A stretch of 37,115 bases of DNA, taken from Apilactobacillus ozensis DSM 23829 = JCM 17196. Its GTDB lineage: Bacteria; Bacillota; Bacilli; Lactobacillales; Lactobacillaceae. The stretch covers positions 1-37,115 of the forward strand of contig NZ_AYYQ01000033.1 of NCBI RefSeq assembly GCF_001435995.1, read 5' to 3'. Position 1 is the stretch's first letter. Every line of letters begins with the position of its first letter. Under the pieces are notes generated by a model. It saw only the letters and a list, made by a program, of their open reading frames with translations, had not been told where the DNA came from and made no database searches. This document shows, piece by piece, positions 3,783 to 26,412 of the stretch. The position numbers were made by a program, and so were the translations under genes.

Positions 3783-4712
3783 TTAATTATTTAAATTCCG
3801 ACGTTTAATTTCTCCTTTTATCGAACTAATTCTAGAAATTAAATCTTTTCTCAAATATTCATTACGGTTTAGAGATTCTTCTGAATGTTTAAGTACGTCG
3901 AATAATTCTTGGTCAGAGTATCCAGACAAATGCTGTTTTACATAAGTGGTTTGTTCATAGGCACGTGTAATAACCATTAAACTAACTTTACCTAATCCCA
4001 CAATCCCTGAACCAGCATTTTTAGCAGTTGGATGGGTACTAAAGTGCTTAATGTGATATACAAGCTGTTGACTAATGTGCGTATTCCAATAGTTTATTAA
4101 AGGACCAGCAAAAAACGCTACTACTATCGTGATAATTCCAACTGCTCCATGTCCCATTAAAGCAATTACCATAAAAACAATATCTTGCAAGCTTCTAATA
4201 TATTTATATTTTAAATTCACATGACTCGAAATAATTGGCGCAATTGCATCGTATGGAGCTGAACCTAAAGAAAGCGACATATATAGAGATGTTCCTAAAC
4301 TAAATAGTAATAATCCAGCTACAACATCTACAATCATTACAAATGGATTTAGATTAATATGGATAAGTATGTCATATATATTAGAAAACCATTGAATTTC
4401 ATATCCAACCAATACCATATTTAAAATAGTTCCAATTCCAATCTGCTTACGATCAAAAATAAAAATTATGATAAATAAAACTGCATTCATCATTAATTGA
4501 AAAGTTCCTAGTGGCATATGCAATGAATTAGAAAATCCAATATTCATCGCGGTAAATGGATCCATACCTAAGCCAGCCTTTTGTAAAAAAACCGCTCCCA
4601 TTGATAAAACAGCGATTCCGACAAATGACATTGCAGAACGAAGTAAAATATTTATAAAATTATATGATTTATTTTCTGTATTTTTATCTTCATTATTCAT
4701 ATTGTTAATCAA
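3783..4712 (-). CDS. YczE/YitT-type integral membrane protein
   Basis: An approximately 309-residue membrane protein of the YczE/YyaS/YitT group, whose function is not established. About five or six hydrophobic helices run from about residue 20 to 210, with the family hallmarks GLGMDPFTAMNIG and LGSAPYDAI. A hydrophilic C-terminal tail of about 90 residues follows, rich in charged residues. The start is uncertain. The ribosome site AAGGAG lies 11 nt before a TTG at 4712, which I prefer. A GTG at 4724 overlaps the ribosome site and the ATG at 4700 is too far away. It is monocistronic, with its own terminator. Confidence 0.8.
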   Translation of the reverse strand: MINNMNNEDKNTENKSYNFINILLRSAMSFVGIAVLSMGAVFLQKAGLGMDPFTAMNIGFSNSLHMPLGTFQLMMNAVLFIIIFIFDRKQIGIGTILNMVLVGYEIQWFSNIYDILIHINLNPFVMIVDVVAGLLLFSLGTSLYMSLSLGSAPYDAIAPIISSHVNLKYKYIRSLQDIVFMVIALMGHGAVGIITIVVAFFAGPLINYWNTHISQQLVYHIKHFSTHPTAKNAGSGIVGLGKVSLMVITRAYEQTTYVKQHLSGYSDQELFDVLKHSEESLNRNEYLRKDLISRISSIKGEIKRRNLNN

Positions 4713-20726: not shown

Positions 20727-21086
20727 TTAAATTTTATTTTTTCTCTCAACATAGCAATCAATCAGAATTGAAATAATCATTGATATCATTACCACTAAGT
20801 ATATATTAACAAGAATTTCATTTTTTGCATAAATACCTATTGTGAAACAAAAAATACACCATATAAAAAGGAAATTTTTTATATTAAGAAATTTCAAATG
20901 TTTTTGATTTATTTTTAACCGACCAAGTTGAAACCTTCTATCTAACCAGAAAACAGTGAATATAAATAATATAATTAATGCTGAAATAATTAAATGCGAT
21001 TTTGCATTATTAATAAATAAGCTAAAAAATACCATTAGTAACCAATGCAAATTGCTCATAAATACATTTTTAGATTTTTCTAACAT
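20727..21086 (-). CDS. Small membrane protein, function unknown
   Basis: A 119-residue protein with four hydrophobic segments (about 10-24, 28-44, 70-85, 90-110) and basic loops. The ATG at 21086 has GGGAG 9 nt upstream and is preferred to the TTG at 21107. It lies just outside the left att repeat at 21119, so in a strain without the rlmH element it would be the gene next to rlmH. Its family is not recognised. Confidence 0.6.
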   Translation of the reverse strand: MLEKSKNVFMSNLHWLLMVFFSLFINNAKSHLIISALIILFIFTVFWLDRRFQLGRLKINQKHLKFLNIKNFLFIWCIFCFTIGIYAKNEILVNIYLVVMISMIISILIDCYVERKNKI

Positions 21087-21118
21087 AGATAATTTCTCCC
21101 ATATCAATTTGTTATTTC

Positions 21119-21139
21119 AAAACCGCATCACTTATGGTA
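21119..21139. repeat. Left attachment repeat of the rlmH element
   Basis: A 21-bp stretch containing CCGCATCACTTATGGTA is identical to 25819-25839 at the end of rlmH. Read on the minus strand, it and its flank encode Tyr-Gly-Ser-Pro-Tyr-His-Lys-stop, the same last residues as RlmH. It continues into a perfect 6-bp inverted repeat, TACGGA-CT-TCCGTA (21138-21151), which is degenerate in the right copy. Confidence 0.85.
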
Positions 21140-21249
21140 CGGACTTCCGTAACTAAATAAAATGAGGTTTTTAATCCCGTTATCCCGCTAATAATAACGG
21201 ATAAAGAAAAGAATCAATTTCATTAGATTATTTTTAATGATATTAAAAA

Positions 21250-22782
21250 TTAAATTTTATCGAAAAGAAAAAGAGTTAACTTAACAAAATTATTTAACTC
21301 ATTAATATTTATATCATCGTCATAAGTAGAATGATGATATTTACTTGTATATTTTAATAATGAATAAAAATCACTTATATATTCATATAATTTATAAAAT
21401 TTTTTATAATGATCGTTTGTCTTAGATTTCTCTATATATTTAATATATGTGGACAACCATGTCCCATCTAAAAAGAATTCAGGAAATTTAATTTTAAAAA
21501 TATCCTCTATTAGAGGTCTTAGCATTCTTAATATGTCAATTAAAGAATCATTATTTGGCCCACGCTTCAGAAATAAATTTAACTTTTCTACATTTTCAGC
21601 AATGCTATTACCTTTACTACGCTTTTGCAATTTTTTAAAAGAAACATTCTTACCACTGGGCATAATCTGAAGCATATTAAAATTACTTGATTCAATAAAC
21701 TTTGTATTTTCATAAAAATCAAAAAGAAAATCTTTATCATGAGTTAAAAGAACGATTTGACCAAATTTTTTTGCAATATTAGATAAAAGATTTATTGTCA
21801 TTTCTTTTCTACCAGTATCAAAGCTATTAAATGGATCGTCTATAATGATTGTTTTGTTCTTATCATCAGATGTACTGGATATATTTAACCTAGCAAAAAA
21901 AGAAGCAAGTGAAAGAGCACTTTTATCTCCGTCACTTAATGTGTAGTCAAATCCAACTGAATCTCTATCCTTAGGATTCTTATATCCTAATACATCTAAT
22001 GTAAATACCAATATAAATTTAATGTTATTATTAAAATTGATACTATGATTAACAACTAATTTAGCATCAGCTACAGATATATTTTCAGTAAATTTACTCA
22101 TGATTTTATTAGTGTATGAAATGAAACTAGGAATTGCTTTTTTAATAAGTTTTTCTATTTCACTATAGATACAGATAATTATTTCAGTGTTTTCATTTAT
22201 TCTAGAATTGTATTTTTTATAGATTTCGTTGTCCTTAATATGGCGATTAATATTATCAACATTAATATTCTTTTTCTTCATAAAATTATGTCTAAAATTA
22301 TGTCTATTTCTTTTAATGTTATGTATTTTTTTGTTTATAATATACATTTTGTCAAGCAAATGATCATATCGGCCATAATCTTCTTTCAACAAAAATTCTT
22401 TCAAAATAAAATTATCATCGTTCAAAGTAAACGTGTATACATTATTGTTAACATAATATGAATTAAATACCTTTATGTCAGGATATAATTTTTGACTTTG
22501 CCATGCCTTATTATTAAATGATTCTTTATACTCTTTATTATTTTCTTTCATAATTAATGAAATTTCTGGACTATTTTTTTCTAAAACACTATCCTTTTTT
22601 AATATAATGTTAGAATTTTTATTTGATAATGATTGAAATAATAAAGCCAAACTTGTTTTACCTGTTCCATTAGGTGCATAAATGCCATTAATTTTTTTTA
22701 AATGTCCATTATTAGGAATTCCTCCCATATTTTTAGTATTAAATCTAGAATAATTATTTATTTCTAGAATTTTATCAATCAT
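21250..22782 (-). CDS. AAA_13-type ATPase, probable defence protein
   Basis: A 510-residue SMC/ABC-like ATPase. Walker A is near the N-terminus (GIYAPNGTGKTSLA). A charged helical middle (about 150-230) follows. The signature-like segment is LSDGDKSALSLASFFA, Walker B is KTIIIDDPFNSFD, and the switch histidine is in VLLTHDKDFL. The C-terminal part has His-His in SKYHHSTYDDD. This order fits the AAA_13 group that includes RloC/PrrC-like and other standalone defence ATPases; no known nuclease motif is certain. I prefer the ATG at 22782 because AAGG is 9 nt before it. It lies alone in the rlmH element, so an anti-phage or anti-plasmid role is a reasonable inference. It is very AT-rich compared with pepN or the lar genes. 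Confidence 0.75.
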   Translation of the reverse strand: MIDKILEINNYSRFNTKNMGGIPNNGHLKKINGIYAPNGTGKTSLALLFQSLSNKNSNIILKKDSVLEKNSPEISLIMKENNKEYKESFNNKAWQSQKLYPDIKVFNSYYVNNNVYTFTLNDDNFILKEFLLKEDYGRYDHLLDKMYIINKKIHNIKRNRHNFRHNFMKKKNINVDNINRHIKDNEIYKKYNSRINENTEIIICIYSEIEKLIKKAIPSFISYTNKIMSKFTENISVADAKLVVNHSINFNNNIKFILVFTLDVLGYKNPKDRDSVGFDYTLSDGDKSALSLASFFARLNISSTSDDKNKTIIIDDPFNSFDTGRKEMTINLLSNIAKKFGQIVLLTHDKDFLFDFYENTKFIESSNFNMLQIMPSGKNVSFKKLQKRSKGNSIAENVEKLNLFLKRGPNNDSLIDILRMLRPLIEDIFKIKFPEFFLDGTWLSTYIKYIEKSKTNDHYKKFYKLYEYISDFYSLLKYTSKYHHSTYDDDININELNNFVKLTLFLFDKI

Positions 22783-22961
22783 AAAAATCATCCTTAATTA
22801 TAAATTTATTCATATAAACATAAATAACTGATGCAAATTTAACACTTATTATTATATAACAAATATTAATTACAAATAAAGCCTAACTACTAGTTAATGA
22901 GTCTCTAGTAATTAGACTTTAATTATATATAATATAAGTTTCGGTATCTTATTATTTTAGA

Positions 22962-23825
22962 TTATAAACCATTCAACTTAAAATTAAATGTTATTAATTT
23001 AGCTTTACTATTATATTCTATACTATTAAAAACAAGACTAGACAATTTTCTAAAGTAACTTTTATTTTGATTATAATATATAGATTTCATTGTCCTGTTA
23101 AAGTTAAATGATTTATAATTACCAAACATTGACATCAATTCATGATATTTATATTGGTAATTATCAATACTATCTTGACTTTCATTAATATTATCTTTTA
23201 ATATTTCAATTTCTTTTGATAACTCTTTACGTAAGAATTCATCATTGTTGGATGCTTTTTCTAAAAAATTTAATTGATTTTTATACCTGGCAATATTAGC
23301 ACTTTGATTTACAACAACTTCTTTAATTAGTGTATGATTTTTATCATAAAATTTTTTCATTAAAGAAAGTAATCTAGCTTTGATTGGTTTTGAATTTATC
23401 AATTTAATGAGTTGAAGTATAGCTTAATATTCTACAATTTCAGCATTTATTGAATTAGCATGACATCCACCAAGCACACCTTTTTTACATGAATAGTATC
23501 TTATGAGCTTGTTATTATTTTTGGTATAGCTAGTTCTTACCTCACCACCACATTGAGGACAACGAAGTACACCAATTAATGGTCTCATGATTTTATTATT
23601 GCAACAACTATCATGTAAAATTTTCTGAGCCTTATTCCAAGTATCCATATCAACTATTTTTTCATGATTACCTCTGACATCAATAATATTCTCGATATCT
23701 AAGCCTTTTCTTCCAAGTTGAGAATAATTGCGATACTTACCATATACTGACATACCAATATACAGTTTATTACTTAATATATTTTCTATAGCAGTATTAT
23801 GAAAATCTAACCCGTTTCGCACTTA
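22962..23825 (-). pseudogene. Large serine recombinase, C-terminal remnant with nonsense codon
   Basis: The reading frame continues from the recombinase domain (FHNTAIENILSNKLYIG), through the zinc ribbon (LRCPQCGGEV, then YYSCKKGVLGGCHANSI), into a C-terminal coiled coil (EKASNNDEFLRKELSKEIEILKD). It is broken by an in-frame TAA at 23424-23426 (AEIVEY, stop, AILQLIKLINSK). A stop also stands directly before the first codon at 23823. No resolvase catalytic domain with its serine is found upstream. Large serine recombinases with this zinc ribbon include the Ccr proteins that move SCC. It is therefore the former mobility gene of the rlmH element, now dead. Confidence 0.85.
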
Positions 23826-23952
23826 TGTAAGACTCACCCTATTGCATTACAAAATATCCAATGAATCAGCTCCTGGTTGAATTAGTCGTGATTAGTGTTT
23901 CAATTACTGATAAAACAGTAATATTATCACACTATTCAATGAAGGTTATTTT

Positions 23953-24036
23953 ATGCCAAATAAGGATGATTATTCTGAATCTGATATACGCAACAAATAC
24001 ATAGATCTAGCCATAGTTATGAAAATAAAAAAATAA
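23953..24036 (+). pseudogene. Possible N-terminal scrap of a type I restriction (HsdR-like) subunit
   Basis: A 27-codon frame starts at an ATG with GAAGG upstream and reads DDYSESDIRNKYIDLAIV before ending at TAA. The SESDIRNKYIDLAI stretch resembles the opening of type I restriction R subunits (S-E-x-D-x-R-x-K-x-I-x-P-A-L). Nothing further of such a protein follows. It may be only a chance resemblance. It sits in the 265-nt gap between the recombinase remnant and the ABC permease, which otherwise shows nothing I can name. Confidence 0.3.
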
Positions 24037-24087
24037 ATAAAATCATTGCAAAGGCTGTGAAGAGAACTGCTTTAAAATTAATTATTA

Positions 24088-24849
24088 CTAAATTCGTCTC
24101 CTAGAAAATAATATAGAACCTAATAAAATAAAAATTATTGTATAAAAAAAGTTACCAAACAACAACTGTGTATTAGATAAATGAGTAATAGAATAATAAG
24201 ACGGATTCCCTAATTGATTAGTAATATTCAACATATTAAATGGATTCCATTTTATACCATTAAATTGAAGATATAATTTACTAAGTGCAGAAGAAATTCC
24301 TTCACCTAAGAAGCAAAGCACAATTCCTAGAGCTATCGCTGAAGAACCATTATTAGTTACACATGCAATACAAAATACCGATGAAATGATTATTAAAGAA
24401 CCTACAAGATCTGTAAAAGAATTAAACATCAAATTTTTCCAAAGAGAAAGTCCATACAAATATTGTTCACTAAATTTAGGAATACCACCTAATACAAATA
24501 TTTTTATTAAAAAAGTATAAACAATTGATAATAAATGTAGATATATACTATACAAAAAAACAAAAATTAGTTTTGAAAAATATATAATATATCTATTGTT
24601 AACACTGTAAATTAAGTGCTTTATAGTTCCATACTGAAATTCTTCTGATATGCTAGTAGCACTTATAATAATTATTAAAATGGTAGTCCATTGAAAGCCA
24701 GCAAAAGCCGAAGAAATATAAAATTTTGCATCTGAACCTTTAGACATAAATGCCACGACTATCATTAAAACAAATAATATTATTGGTATATAAATGGTAG
24801 ACTTTTTTTTACTAATTTTAAACATTTCTTGTTTTAACAACATTAACAT
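24088..24849 (-). CDS. ABC-2 type transporter permease
   Basis: A 253-residue membrane protein with six hydrophobic segments and a short N-terminal cytoplasmic stretch (MLMLLKQEMFKISKKKS). The segment SEEFQYGTIKHLIYS is a hallmark of ABC-2 permeases of the bacitracin/lantibiotic-resistance (BcrB-like) group. AAGGAG lies 9 nt before the ATG. It is 15 nt downstream of its ATPase gene, so the two form one exporter. It is inside the rlmH element, so it is accessory cargo, perhaps for peptide-antibiotic resistance or immunity (inference). Confidence 0.85.
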   Translation of the reverse strand: MLMLLKQEMFKISKKKSTIYIPIILFVLMIVVAFMSKGSDAKFYISSAFAGFQWTTILIIIISATSISEEFQYGTIKHLIYSVNNRYIIYFSKLIFVFLYSIYLHLLSIVYTFLIKIFVLGGIPKFSEQYLYGLSLWKNLMFNSFTDLVGSLIIISSVFCIACVTNNGSSAIALGIVLCFLGEGISSALSKLYLQFNGIKWNPFNMLNITNQLGNPSYYSITHLSNTQLLFGNFFYTIIFILLGSILFSRRRI

Positions 24850-24864
24850 TTAAAAATCTCCTTT

Positions 24865-25764
24865 TTAATTATAAATTGCTTTTAACAGAGATGACTCCAG
24901 TGTTGAACCAGATTTATAAAAATCAATTATTTTAATATTATTTCTATACAGCAATTGAAATATCTGCTCTATAGAATGTTTATCTATCAATTTAATTTGA
25001 AAAGTACCATCTTCACTTGTAGTAGTTTTAAAATCTTTATTATTTAATAGGAGAATACTTTTACTGTTATTGCTTGTTTTTAAATTTAAGTATGTATTTC
25101 CTATACTTAATAAGTCATTTACATATGATTTGTTTATTATTTTTCCATGATTTATGATTACAACCCTATTCACTATTATTTCTAGCTCACTTAAAATGTG
25201 GCTAGAAATTAAAAACGAAACACCTTTTTTTGATAATGATAAAATTAAATTTCTGAGCTCCACATTAGATTTGGGATCTAGTCCATTCATTGGCTCATCT
25301 AAAATAACTAGTTTAGGATTATTTAAAAGTGCAATGAGTATGCCCATTTTTTGTTTCATTCCAAGAGAATACTTTTTAACTTTTAAATTAATAAATTTTC
25401 CCATATTTAATTCATTGATAATATGCATAGTTTCTTTACTGACATTTTTTCTTTTATGGGTATACATACGAACATGATCCATTCCTGTTAAATATGGGTA
25501 TAATGAAGGATTTTCAATTAAAGCTCCTATTTCATGCAAGCCATGATGGCTAGTATAATTTATATTTTGTCCATTTATGGATATTTCACCGCTATCTATT
25601 TTTAATAAACTCAAAATGGACTTCATAATAGTAGTTTTACCAGCGCCATTTGGTCCAATAAGTCCAACAATATCGCTACTATTGATAGAAAAACTAATAT
25701 TACTAAGTAATGATTTTTTACCAACTTTTTTATTTATATTGTTAACTTCTAAAATGGTTTTCAA
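24865..25764 (-). CDS. ABC transporter ATPase, BcrA-like
   Basis: A 299-residue ATPase with Walker A GPNGAGKTTI, Q-loop ALIENPSLYPYLTG, signature YSLGMKQKMGIL, Walker B LVILDEPMNGLDP and H-loop SSHILSEL. A C-terminal extension of about 80 residues is typical of bacitracin/lantibiotic-export ATPases. The start is probably the TTG at 25764 (AAGGAG about 12 nt upstream). The ATG at 25785 lies ahead of that site. It is the first gene in the element next to rlmH and is coupled to the permease after it. Confidence 0.88.
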   Translation of the reverse strand: MKTILEVNNINKKVGKKSLLSNISFSINSSDIVGLIGPNGAGKTTIMKSILSLLKIDSGEISINGQNINYTSHHGLHEIGALIENPSLYPYLTGMDHVRMYTHKRKNVSKETMHIINELNMGKFINLKVKKYSLGMKQKMGILIALLNNPKLVILDEPMNGLDPKSNVELRNLILSLSKKGVSFLISSHILSELEIIVNRVVIINHGKIINKSYVNDLLSIGNTYLNLKTSNNSKSILLLNNKDFKTTTSEDGTFQIKLIDKHSIEQIFQLLYRNNIKIIDFYKSGSTLESSLLKAIYN

Positions 25765-25818
25765 AATAATTTCACTCTCCTTCATTTTATTCTAATACTA
25801 ACTAAATAAGATACAATA

Positions 25819-25839
25819 AAAACCGCATCACTTATGGTA
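25819..25839. repeat. Right attachment repeat within the rlmH 3' end
   Basis: This copy is identical over 21 bp to 21119-21139 and overlaps the last codons and stop of rlmH. It marks the junction between chromosome and element. Confidence 0.85.
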
Positions 25840-26307
25840 TGGACTACCTTCATTAATCATAAAGGCACGATAAATTTGTTCCGTTAGTACCAAGCGCATC
25901 AACTGGTGTGGGAGCGTGAAACGTCCAAAAGAGATTTGGGTATCAGCACGTTTCAAAACTTTATCCGATAAGCCCAGTGAGCCACCAATAACAAACGTAA
26001 TATCCGAATGTCCATATGTAGTTAGTTGATCAATTTCTTTAGCGAACTCTTCTGAAGCCCTTTCTTTTCCCAAAATAGCCAGTGCATATACATATTCACG
26101 TTCACTAATTTTACTTAATATGCGCTCGCCTTCCTTATCCATTACGTTATCCATTTGTGCCGGACTTAAATTTTCGGGGGCTTTTTCATCTGGTACTTCT
26201 ATAATCCGAAAATTACAAAAACGTGATAAACGCTTACTATATTCACCAATCCCCGCTTTAAAGTATTTTTCTTTCAACTTACCAACTACGACTAACTTAA
26301 TATTCAT
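25828..26307 (-). CDS. rlmH: RlmH, 23S rRNA pseudouridine-1915 N3-methyltransferase
   Basis: A 159-residue SPOUT methyltransferase that methylates pseudouridine 1915 in helix 69 of 23S rRNA using S-adenosylmethionine. The family opening is [16 protein letters not shown]. The knot loop [18 protein letters not shown] binds the methyl donor. The C-terminus ends PYHK. The ATG at 26307 gives the usual length of 159; AGGAAGG lies about 12 nt upstream. The intact end shows that insertion of the adjacent element restores the coding sequence, as SCC does in staphylococci. Confidence 0.97.
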
Positions 26308-26412
26308 TTGTGAAATCATCCTTCCTATTATTCATTGATTACTACATTTAGTATTACTGATTTAAATTAAACACTATCAGTTGTATATGCAAATTATCCC
26401 CATTGTAAAAAG

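Follow-up and report, generated by a model that had tools for sequence, protein, structure and literature searches.

A probable decayed SCC-type cassette chromosome at the 3' end of rlmH in Apilactobacillus ozensis

The stretch of DNA analysed here, hereafter the window, comprises 37,115 nucleotides of contig NZ_AYYQ01000033.1 from Apilactobacillus ozensis DSM 23829, and the locus of interest within it, at positions 21119-25839, adjoins the gene rlmH and recalls the staphylococcal cassette chromosome (SCC). In order from rlmH, the locus contains an ABC ATPase and an ABC-2 permease (24088-25785), two pieces of a recombinase gene (22962-23822) and an AAA_13 family ATPase (21250-22791). An earlier note, made from the sequence without database searches, had described a 21-bp direct repeat bounding 4.7 kb, and exact copies of this repeat, AAAACCGCATCACTTATGGTA, were indeed found at 21119-21139 and 25819-25839. 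The copies are spaced 4700 bp apart, and the similarity between them extends over 38 nt at 87%. Chance was ruled out as the origin of the pair by a control that gave 0 matches in 100 dinucleotide shuffles, and the core 17-mer has two exact copies in the whole 1.48-Mb, 36-contig genome. A minus-strand open reading frame (ORF), 25828-26319, which encodes RlmH (PF02590, E 2.8e-57), has its 3' end within the right copy, so the SCC feature of insertion at the 3' end of this host gene, the docking site, is present. The left copy, read on the minus strand, consists of the codons GGA, AGT, CCG, TAC, CAT, AAG and TGA, i.e. Gly-Ser-Pro-Tyr-His-Lys-stop, as in RlmH; both points agree with what the earlier note had read at the two ends. 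A second feature of SCC elements, direct-repeat attachment (att) sites with a conserved core at both ends, is found here as well.

The recombinase pieces were also confirmed as remains of a large serine recombinase. Piece 1 (23424-23822, minus strand) matches the recombinase domain PF07508 (4.4e-10) and the zinc ribbon PF13408 (6.4e-8), and among the NCBIfam recombinase models its best match is CcrB (NF047343, 1.4e-18, model positions 214-353), with 66.9 bits as compared with 44.2 for CcrC, 43.2 for XisF and 20.8 for CcrA. These scores are far below the model cut-offs, as expected for a piece of only 132 amino acids. Piece 2 (22962-23402, minus strand), the C-terminal part, continues in the same frame after one in-frame stop; it has no Pfam or NCBIfam match of its own but is recognized alone (3.7e-5), and a Liquorilactobacillus CcrB of 545 residues aligns by tblastn, over residues 216-509, across both pieces and the in-frame stop with E 2.6e-34. 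The N-terminal catalytic resolvase domain is missing from the element, where the similarity starts at CcrB residue 216 and no PF00239 match was obtained. A CcrA query also matches the element weakly (best 9.5e-6), on the same stretch as CcrB, which is expected between paralogues. In a tree of 32 rows, built from piece 1 and the matching region of other sequences, the remnant groups with CcrB and apart from the three CcrA rows (support 89/89). Among 72,556 plasmid records, piece 1 has four matches at 1e-8, three from Staphylococcus and one from Listeria. Judged by its domains and closest models, the remnant is CcrB-like, the tail of a ccrB gene. The possibility that it is a relative of CcrA was rejected by both the NCBIfam scores and the tree grouping.

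The earlier note had proposed a search for intact relatives, and fuller relatives of this remnant were found within the Lactobacillaceae. A search of 397 genomes of this family with piece 1 gave matches at 0.001 in 10, namely the genome of the window, seven others at 38-46% identity and two weak ones at 26% (G041 and G145). The CcrB model reaches 20 of the 397 genomes at 1e-40; its seven top genomes score 303-536 bits (the next has 194) and are the same seven as the 38-46% relatives of piece 1 (G255, G240, G156, G178, G167, G231 and G153). Three of these, G156, G178 and G231, correspond to records of Liquorilactobacillus capillatus, aquaticus and uvarum, and a separate scan restricted to named genomes yielded only three loci, all from Liquorilactobacillus. 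In all seven, rlmH lies upstream of ccrB on the same contig and strand, about 5-12 kb away, and a ccrA-like gene adjoins ccrB; for the two ccrA-like genes compared with NCBIfam, the CcrA model ranks first, by a small margin in G167. The DUF927 helicase model Cch matches seven of the 397 genomes, six of them within the seven ccrB genomes, and the Cch of one relative is related to the PDB entry 5dgk, 'Active helicase' (8.8e-62). DUF960 was observed in G156 and DUF1643 in G255, G167 and G153, in a scan that covered part of the relatives' ORFs. Decay is also visible among the relatives: ccrB is frame-broken in two of the seven (G231 and G153), cch survives as fragments only in G231 and has two stops in G153, and the ccrB match of G240 stops at model position 476 of 542. 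The seventh genome with a Cch-like helicase, G093, carries it at C4:224223-225680 (1.0e-48), with rlmH on another contig and no CcrB-model match at 1e-40.

The relatives also allowed us to distinguish the two ends of the window element. A site pattern with at most two mismatches located the rlmH-side site in six of the seven relatives and a further site beyond ccrB in five (G255, G240, G167, G156 and G231); in G153 the rlmH end is divergent and a further site matches weakly about 11.6 kb on, and the contig of G178 ends before any far site. The non-rlmH arms are similar rather than identical, with TACGG in place in five of eight, TACGC in G231 and two divergent arms in G167. We compiled a non-rlmH matrix from these eight arms of five genomes, excluding the window, and an rlmH-side matrix from five arms. 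Two of the eight non-rlmH arms, in G240 and G255, are separated from the rlmH-side site by only about 60 bp instead of marking the far end, and of the two G167 arms one is located past the nearer site of that genome. Neither matrix includes the rlmH-side arm of G178, the two G153 sites or the G255 site at its rlmH fragment. The left copy in the window (GTTACGGAAGTCCG) scores 22.5 bits with the non-rlmH matrix and 11.0 with the rlmH-side matrix, and 22.5 bits is attained by one of 74,202 window positions, the left copy itself. The right copy shows the reverse, 6.5 versus 16.2 bits. Because its arm matches the non-rlmH att arms of other cassettes, the left copy is a cassette att site and no piece of rlmH. 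On the minus strand, 21119-21139 can accordingly be described as the far-end att site (element arm GTTACGGAAGTCCG, core and chromosome arm) and 25819-25839 as the rlmH-side att site (rlmH arm, core and element arm). The G255 locus (C32:66500-83500) shows four att-like sites in one orientation (67304-67417, 70548, 81438 and 81499), together with a second rlmH 3' fragment (residues 129-160) downstream of the full rlmH; it looks like tandem (composite) cassettes, one perhaps with its own rlmH end.

In our reading, with a probability of roughly 90%, 21119-25839 is what decay has left of an SCC-type cassette chromosome; the paired sites, a left arm like that of other cassettes, a remnant identified as CcrB and the fuller relatives at rlmH all speak for it. 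The same observations uphold the proposal of the earlier note, which had seen an SCC-like element at the rlmH stop codon. In the proposed scenario, a circular cassette with ccrA and ccrB would have entered a Lactobacillaceae cell, and the Ccr serine recombinases would have joined its attP site to attB, which the final codons of rlmH form, so that rlmH would have stayed intact with the cassette flanked by one att copy on either side. Subsequent loss would have removed ccrA, the catalytic half of ccrB and, if one was there, the cch helicase, with the ccrB tail and the cargo (the ABC exporter and the AAA_13 ATPase) remaining between two intact att sites. At present the element would not move by itself and would depend on a foreign Ccr acting in trans. 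We infer that CcrA and CcrB carried out the integration, that this copy once had ccrA and cch, and that it is now immobile on its own. The ccr genes of an SCC element (ccrA and ccrB, or ccrC) are represented in the window by a truncated and interrupted ccrB only, although this remnant has the recombinase domain, the zinc ribbon and the best match expected of the CcrB subgroup. The Cch-type DUF927 helicase and the core-locus genes with DUF960 and DUF1643 are absent from the window element. Thus, the element is SCC-like in its mode of operation and most likely descends from an SCC-type element, while by itself it lacks the recombinases and Cch of a complete one.

The history of the site was further assessed within the genus. 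We recovered rlmH in 14 of the 15 congeners searched (none in G011), with orthologues 87-97% identical. A near-exact docking site follows the rlmH stop in three of these 14 (G014, G009 and G012), and in the remaining congeners the site is more diverged or different DNA lies past the stop, so the site varies within the genus. Among the 16 genus genomes, PF07508 occurs in one, that of the window, and solely in the remnant. A DNA search of these 16 genomes with the whole element returned the window itself; apart from four short matches with E values of 5e-4 to 9e-4, all others fell in the ABC ATPase stretch (query 3953-4610), and no second copy of the element was revealed. The sister species G014, whose RlmH is 97% identical, has a single site at rlmH without such a recombinase. 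It has other genes between rlmH and a cbiO-cbiQ-cbiM block common to the window, and the 116-aa product of one of them is related to the product of 20727-21107, a small hypothetical protein encoded on the minus strand just outside the cassette (27% identity, E 1.1e-10). This relationship suggests that the left flank of the window element is older chromosome. The comparison with G014 is suggestive of an insertion, short of proof.

Several observations weigh against the proposed cassette. The single site of G014 is followed by different DNA, and the insertion event itself is deduced from one strain of the species. Inside the 4.7-kb element, no separate remnant of ccrA or cch was found, and a Cch query gave matches at chance level only. 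The remnant sits on a long branch of the tree, which gives it no placement within CcrB. None of the strong Ccr and Cch relatives reaches the strict NCBIfam equivalog cut-offs, and no rlmH was found in the stretches around the weak relatives of G041 and G145. Finally, the low guanine-cytosine content of the element, 24.3% as compared with 31.1% elsewhere in the window, speaks for a cassette, but at 23.1% the adjoining 1 kb on its left is as AT-rich as the cassette, so that composition leaves the left border unmarked.

Three other explanations were considered. The most durable of them, which we nevertheless regard as improbable, is a functional mini-cassette that still moves because another cassette supplies Ccr proteins in trans. 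The identity of the two 21-bp att sites fits such an element, as does the fact that both retain the C of core TATCATAA, which reads TACCATAA here; PMC6222049, citing Wang et al., names this C as the essential base of SCCmec sites. Elements with ccrA and ccrB are moreover present in other genomes of the same family. The genome of the window, however, has no CcrB-model match at 1e-40 and its PF07508 domain is confined to the remnant, and the lack of a second copy in the genus likewise argues against continued movement. Compared with a mini-cassette, it is far less probable that another large serine recombinase, of phage or integrase type, made use of the rlmH site without any connection to SCC. 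Target sites are diverse among large serine recombinases, and 13 more Lactobacillaceae genomes have weaker CcrB-model matches (139-194 bits), which leaves some room for such an origin; against it stand the first rank of CcrB among the recombinase models and the nature of the seven closest family relatives, which are ccrB genes beside ccrA-like genes downstream of rlmH. Lastly, the left repeat is scarcely credible as the leftover 3' end of a duplicated rlmH, the alternative by which the earlier note had proposed to judge its own reading, for although it codes for the same last six residues as RlmH and a real second rlmH 3' fragment in G255 demonstrates that such fragments occur, it resembles the rlmH end over no more than 38 nt and its arm GTTACGGAAGTCCG is of the cassette type by the matrix scores given above.

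The decayed cassette that we propose shares with SCC and SCCmec elements the docking at the 3' end of rlmH and the TA(T/C)CATAA core. The likeness is stronger in the fuller relatives, with a DUF927 Cch followed by a ccrA-ccrB pair, DUF960 in G156 and DUF1643 in G255, G167 and G153; a Staphylococcus epidermidis record is annotated with the same genes in the same arrangement, namely DUF927, two recombinases, SAUGI, DUF960 and DUF1643. The differences from SCC are the Lactobacillaceae host and the position of the Ccr and Cch relatives under the equivalog cut-offs, and the window copy in addition is without ccrA, cch and the catalytic half of ccrB, with no mec-type gene among its annotated ORFs. 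An Enterococcus cassette chromosome (ECC), integrated at rlmH via ccrAB, has already been published; in the sections of PMC6222049 consulted, it is described with att repeats of about 50 bp, an inverted repeat in attR and very variable cargo, and one strain keeps a remnant with both att sites. As far as those sections go, ECC resembles the window element in its Lactobacillales host, rlmH docking, att repeats, variable cargo and remnant form. It differs in being reported from Enterococcus, the text containing no word beginning 'lactobacill', and the window element is a broken one of 4.7 kb. PolA-SSB islands are also located at rlmH in other Bacillota, and PMC10061031 describes a second end located via a repeat of the last bases of rlmH, as well as conflict-type cargo, like those seen here. 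These islands are defined by a polymerase-SSB pair, for which no search was made here, and the text has no word that begins with 'lactobacill'. Likewise, nothing on lactobacilli was present in the portions covered of PMC7581432 (0 occurrences of the terms), PMC2579912 and PMC1781477. No cassette chromosome in Lactobacillaceae is described in the literature searched, mostly titles and the beginnings of abstracts. Since rlmH cassette chromosomes have been published for Enterococcus, a member of the same order (PMC6222049, in the sections mentioned), the kind of cassette is already known, and the novelty, within the literature searched, is its host family, Lactobacillaceae. The known range of the cassette chromosome, an element familiar above all for spreading methicillin resistance in staphylococci, would thereby be extended to this family, with the window as a cassette caught in mid-decay with its cargo left behind. 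The att sequences and the fuller relatives make the rlmH recognition code testable in harmless food bacteria.

Beyond the family, the CcrB model at 1e-80 matches 20 of 395 Lactobacillales genomes, all outside the family of the window and belonging to five other families. All 20 have rlmH, which is on the ccrB contig in 17 and on a separate contig in three (G674, G688 and G704). No more than about 26 kb separates ccrB from an rlmH copy in each of the 17, always with ccrB on the downstream side of rlmH (in G623, which has two copies, the nearer one was used for the distance); the two genes share a strand in 14 and are on opposite strands in G703, G511 and G661. This location of ccrB downstream of rlmH in 17 of 20 genomes suggests, from gene positions alone, that rlmH is a much-used docking site across Lactobacillales. 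It is a tentative thought, against which we lean somewhat, that cassette chromosomes are general at rlmH throughout the order, in food and insect lactobacilli included, with one shared docking code. If so, decayed copies that, like the one in the window, keep two intact att sites could be mobilized in trans, and lactobacilli, enterococci and staphylococci could exchange cassettes.

The earlier note had also pointed to accessory cargo inside the element, which was identified as an ABC exporter and an AAA_13 ATPase, all encoded on the minus strand. Next to rlmH lies the ATP-binding subunit of the exporter (24865-25785; PF00005, 1.4e-29), nearest to the lantibiotic-protection type (TIGR03740, 200 bits, below the cut-off of 309.75), followed by an ABC-2 type permease (24088-24849; PF12730, 2.1e-11), probably of the same exporter. 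A short open stretch on the plus strand, 23953-24036, is located between the ccrB remnant and the ABC genes; by eye it presumably resembles the start of a type I restriction subunit, and it gave no Pfam match at E 1 and no plasmid match at E 10. The AAA_13 family ATPase at the far end (21250-22791; PF13166, 4.8e-19) is a candidate defence protein (PADLOC candidate PDC-S06, 4.5e-24). The cargo would likely serve in bacteriocin immunity and phage defence. Three full-length relatives of the AAA_13 ATPase, at 31-34% identity, are encoded on Lactococcus and Leuconostoc plasmids, one of which also bears a ToxN/AbiQ gene.

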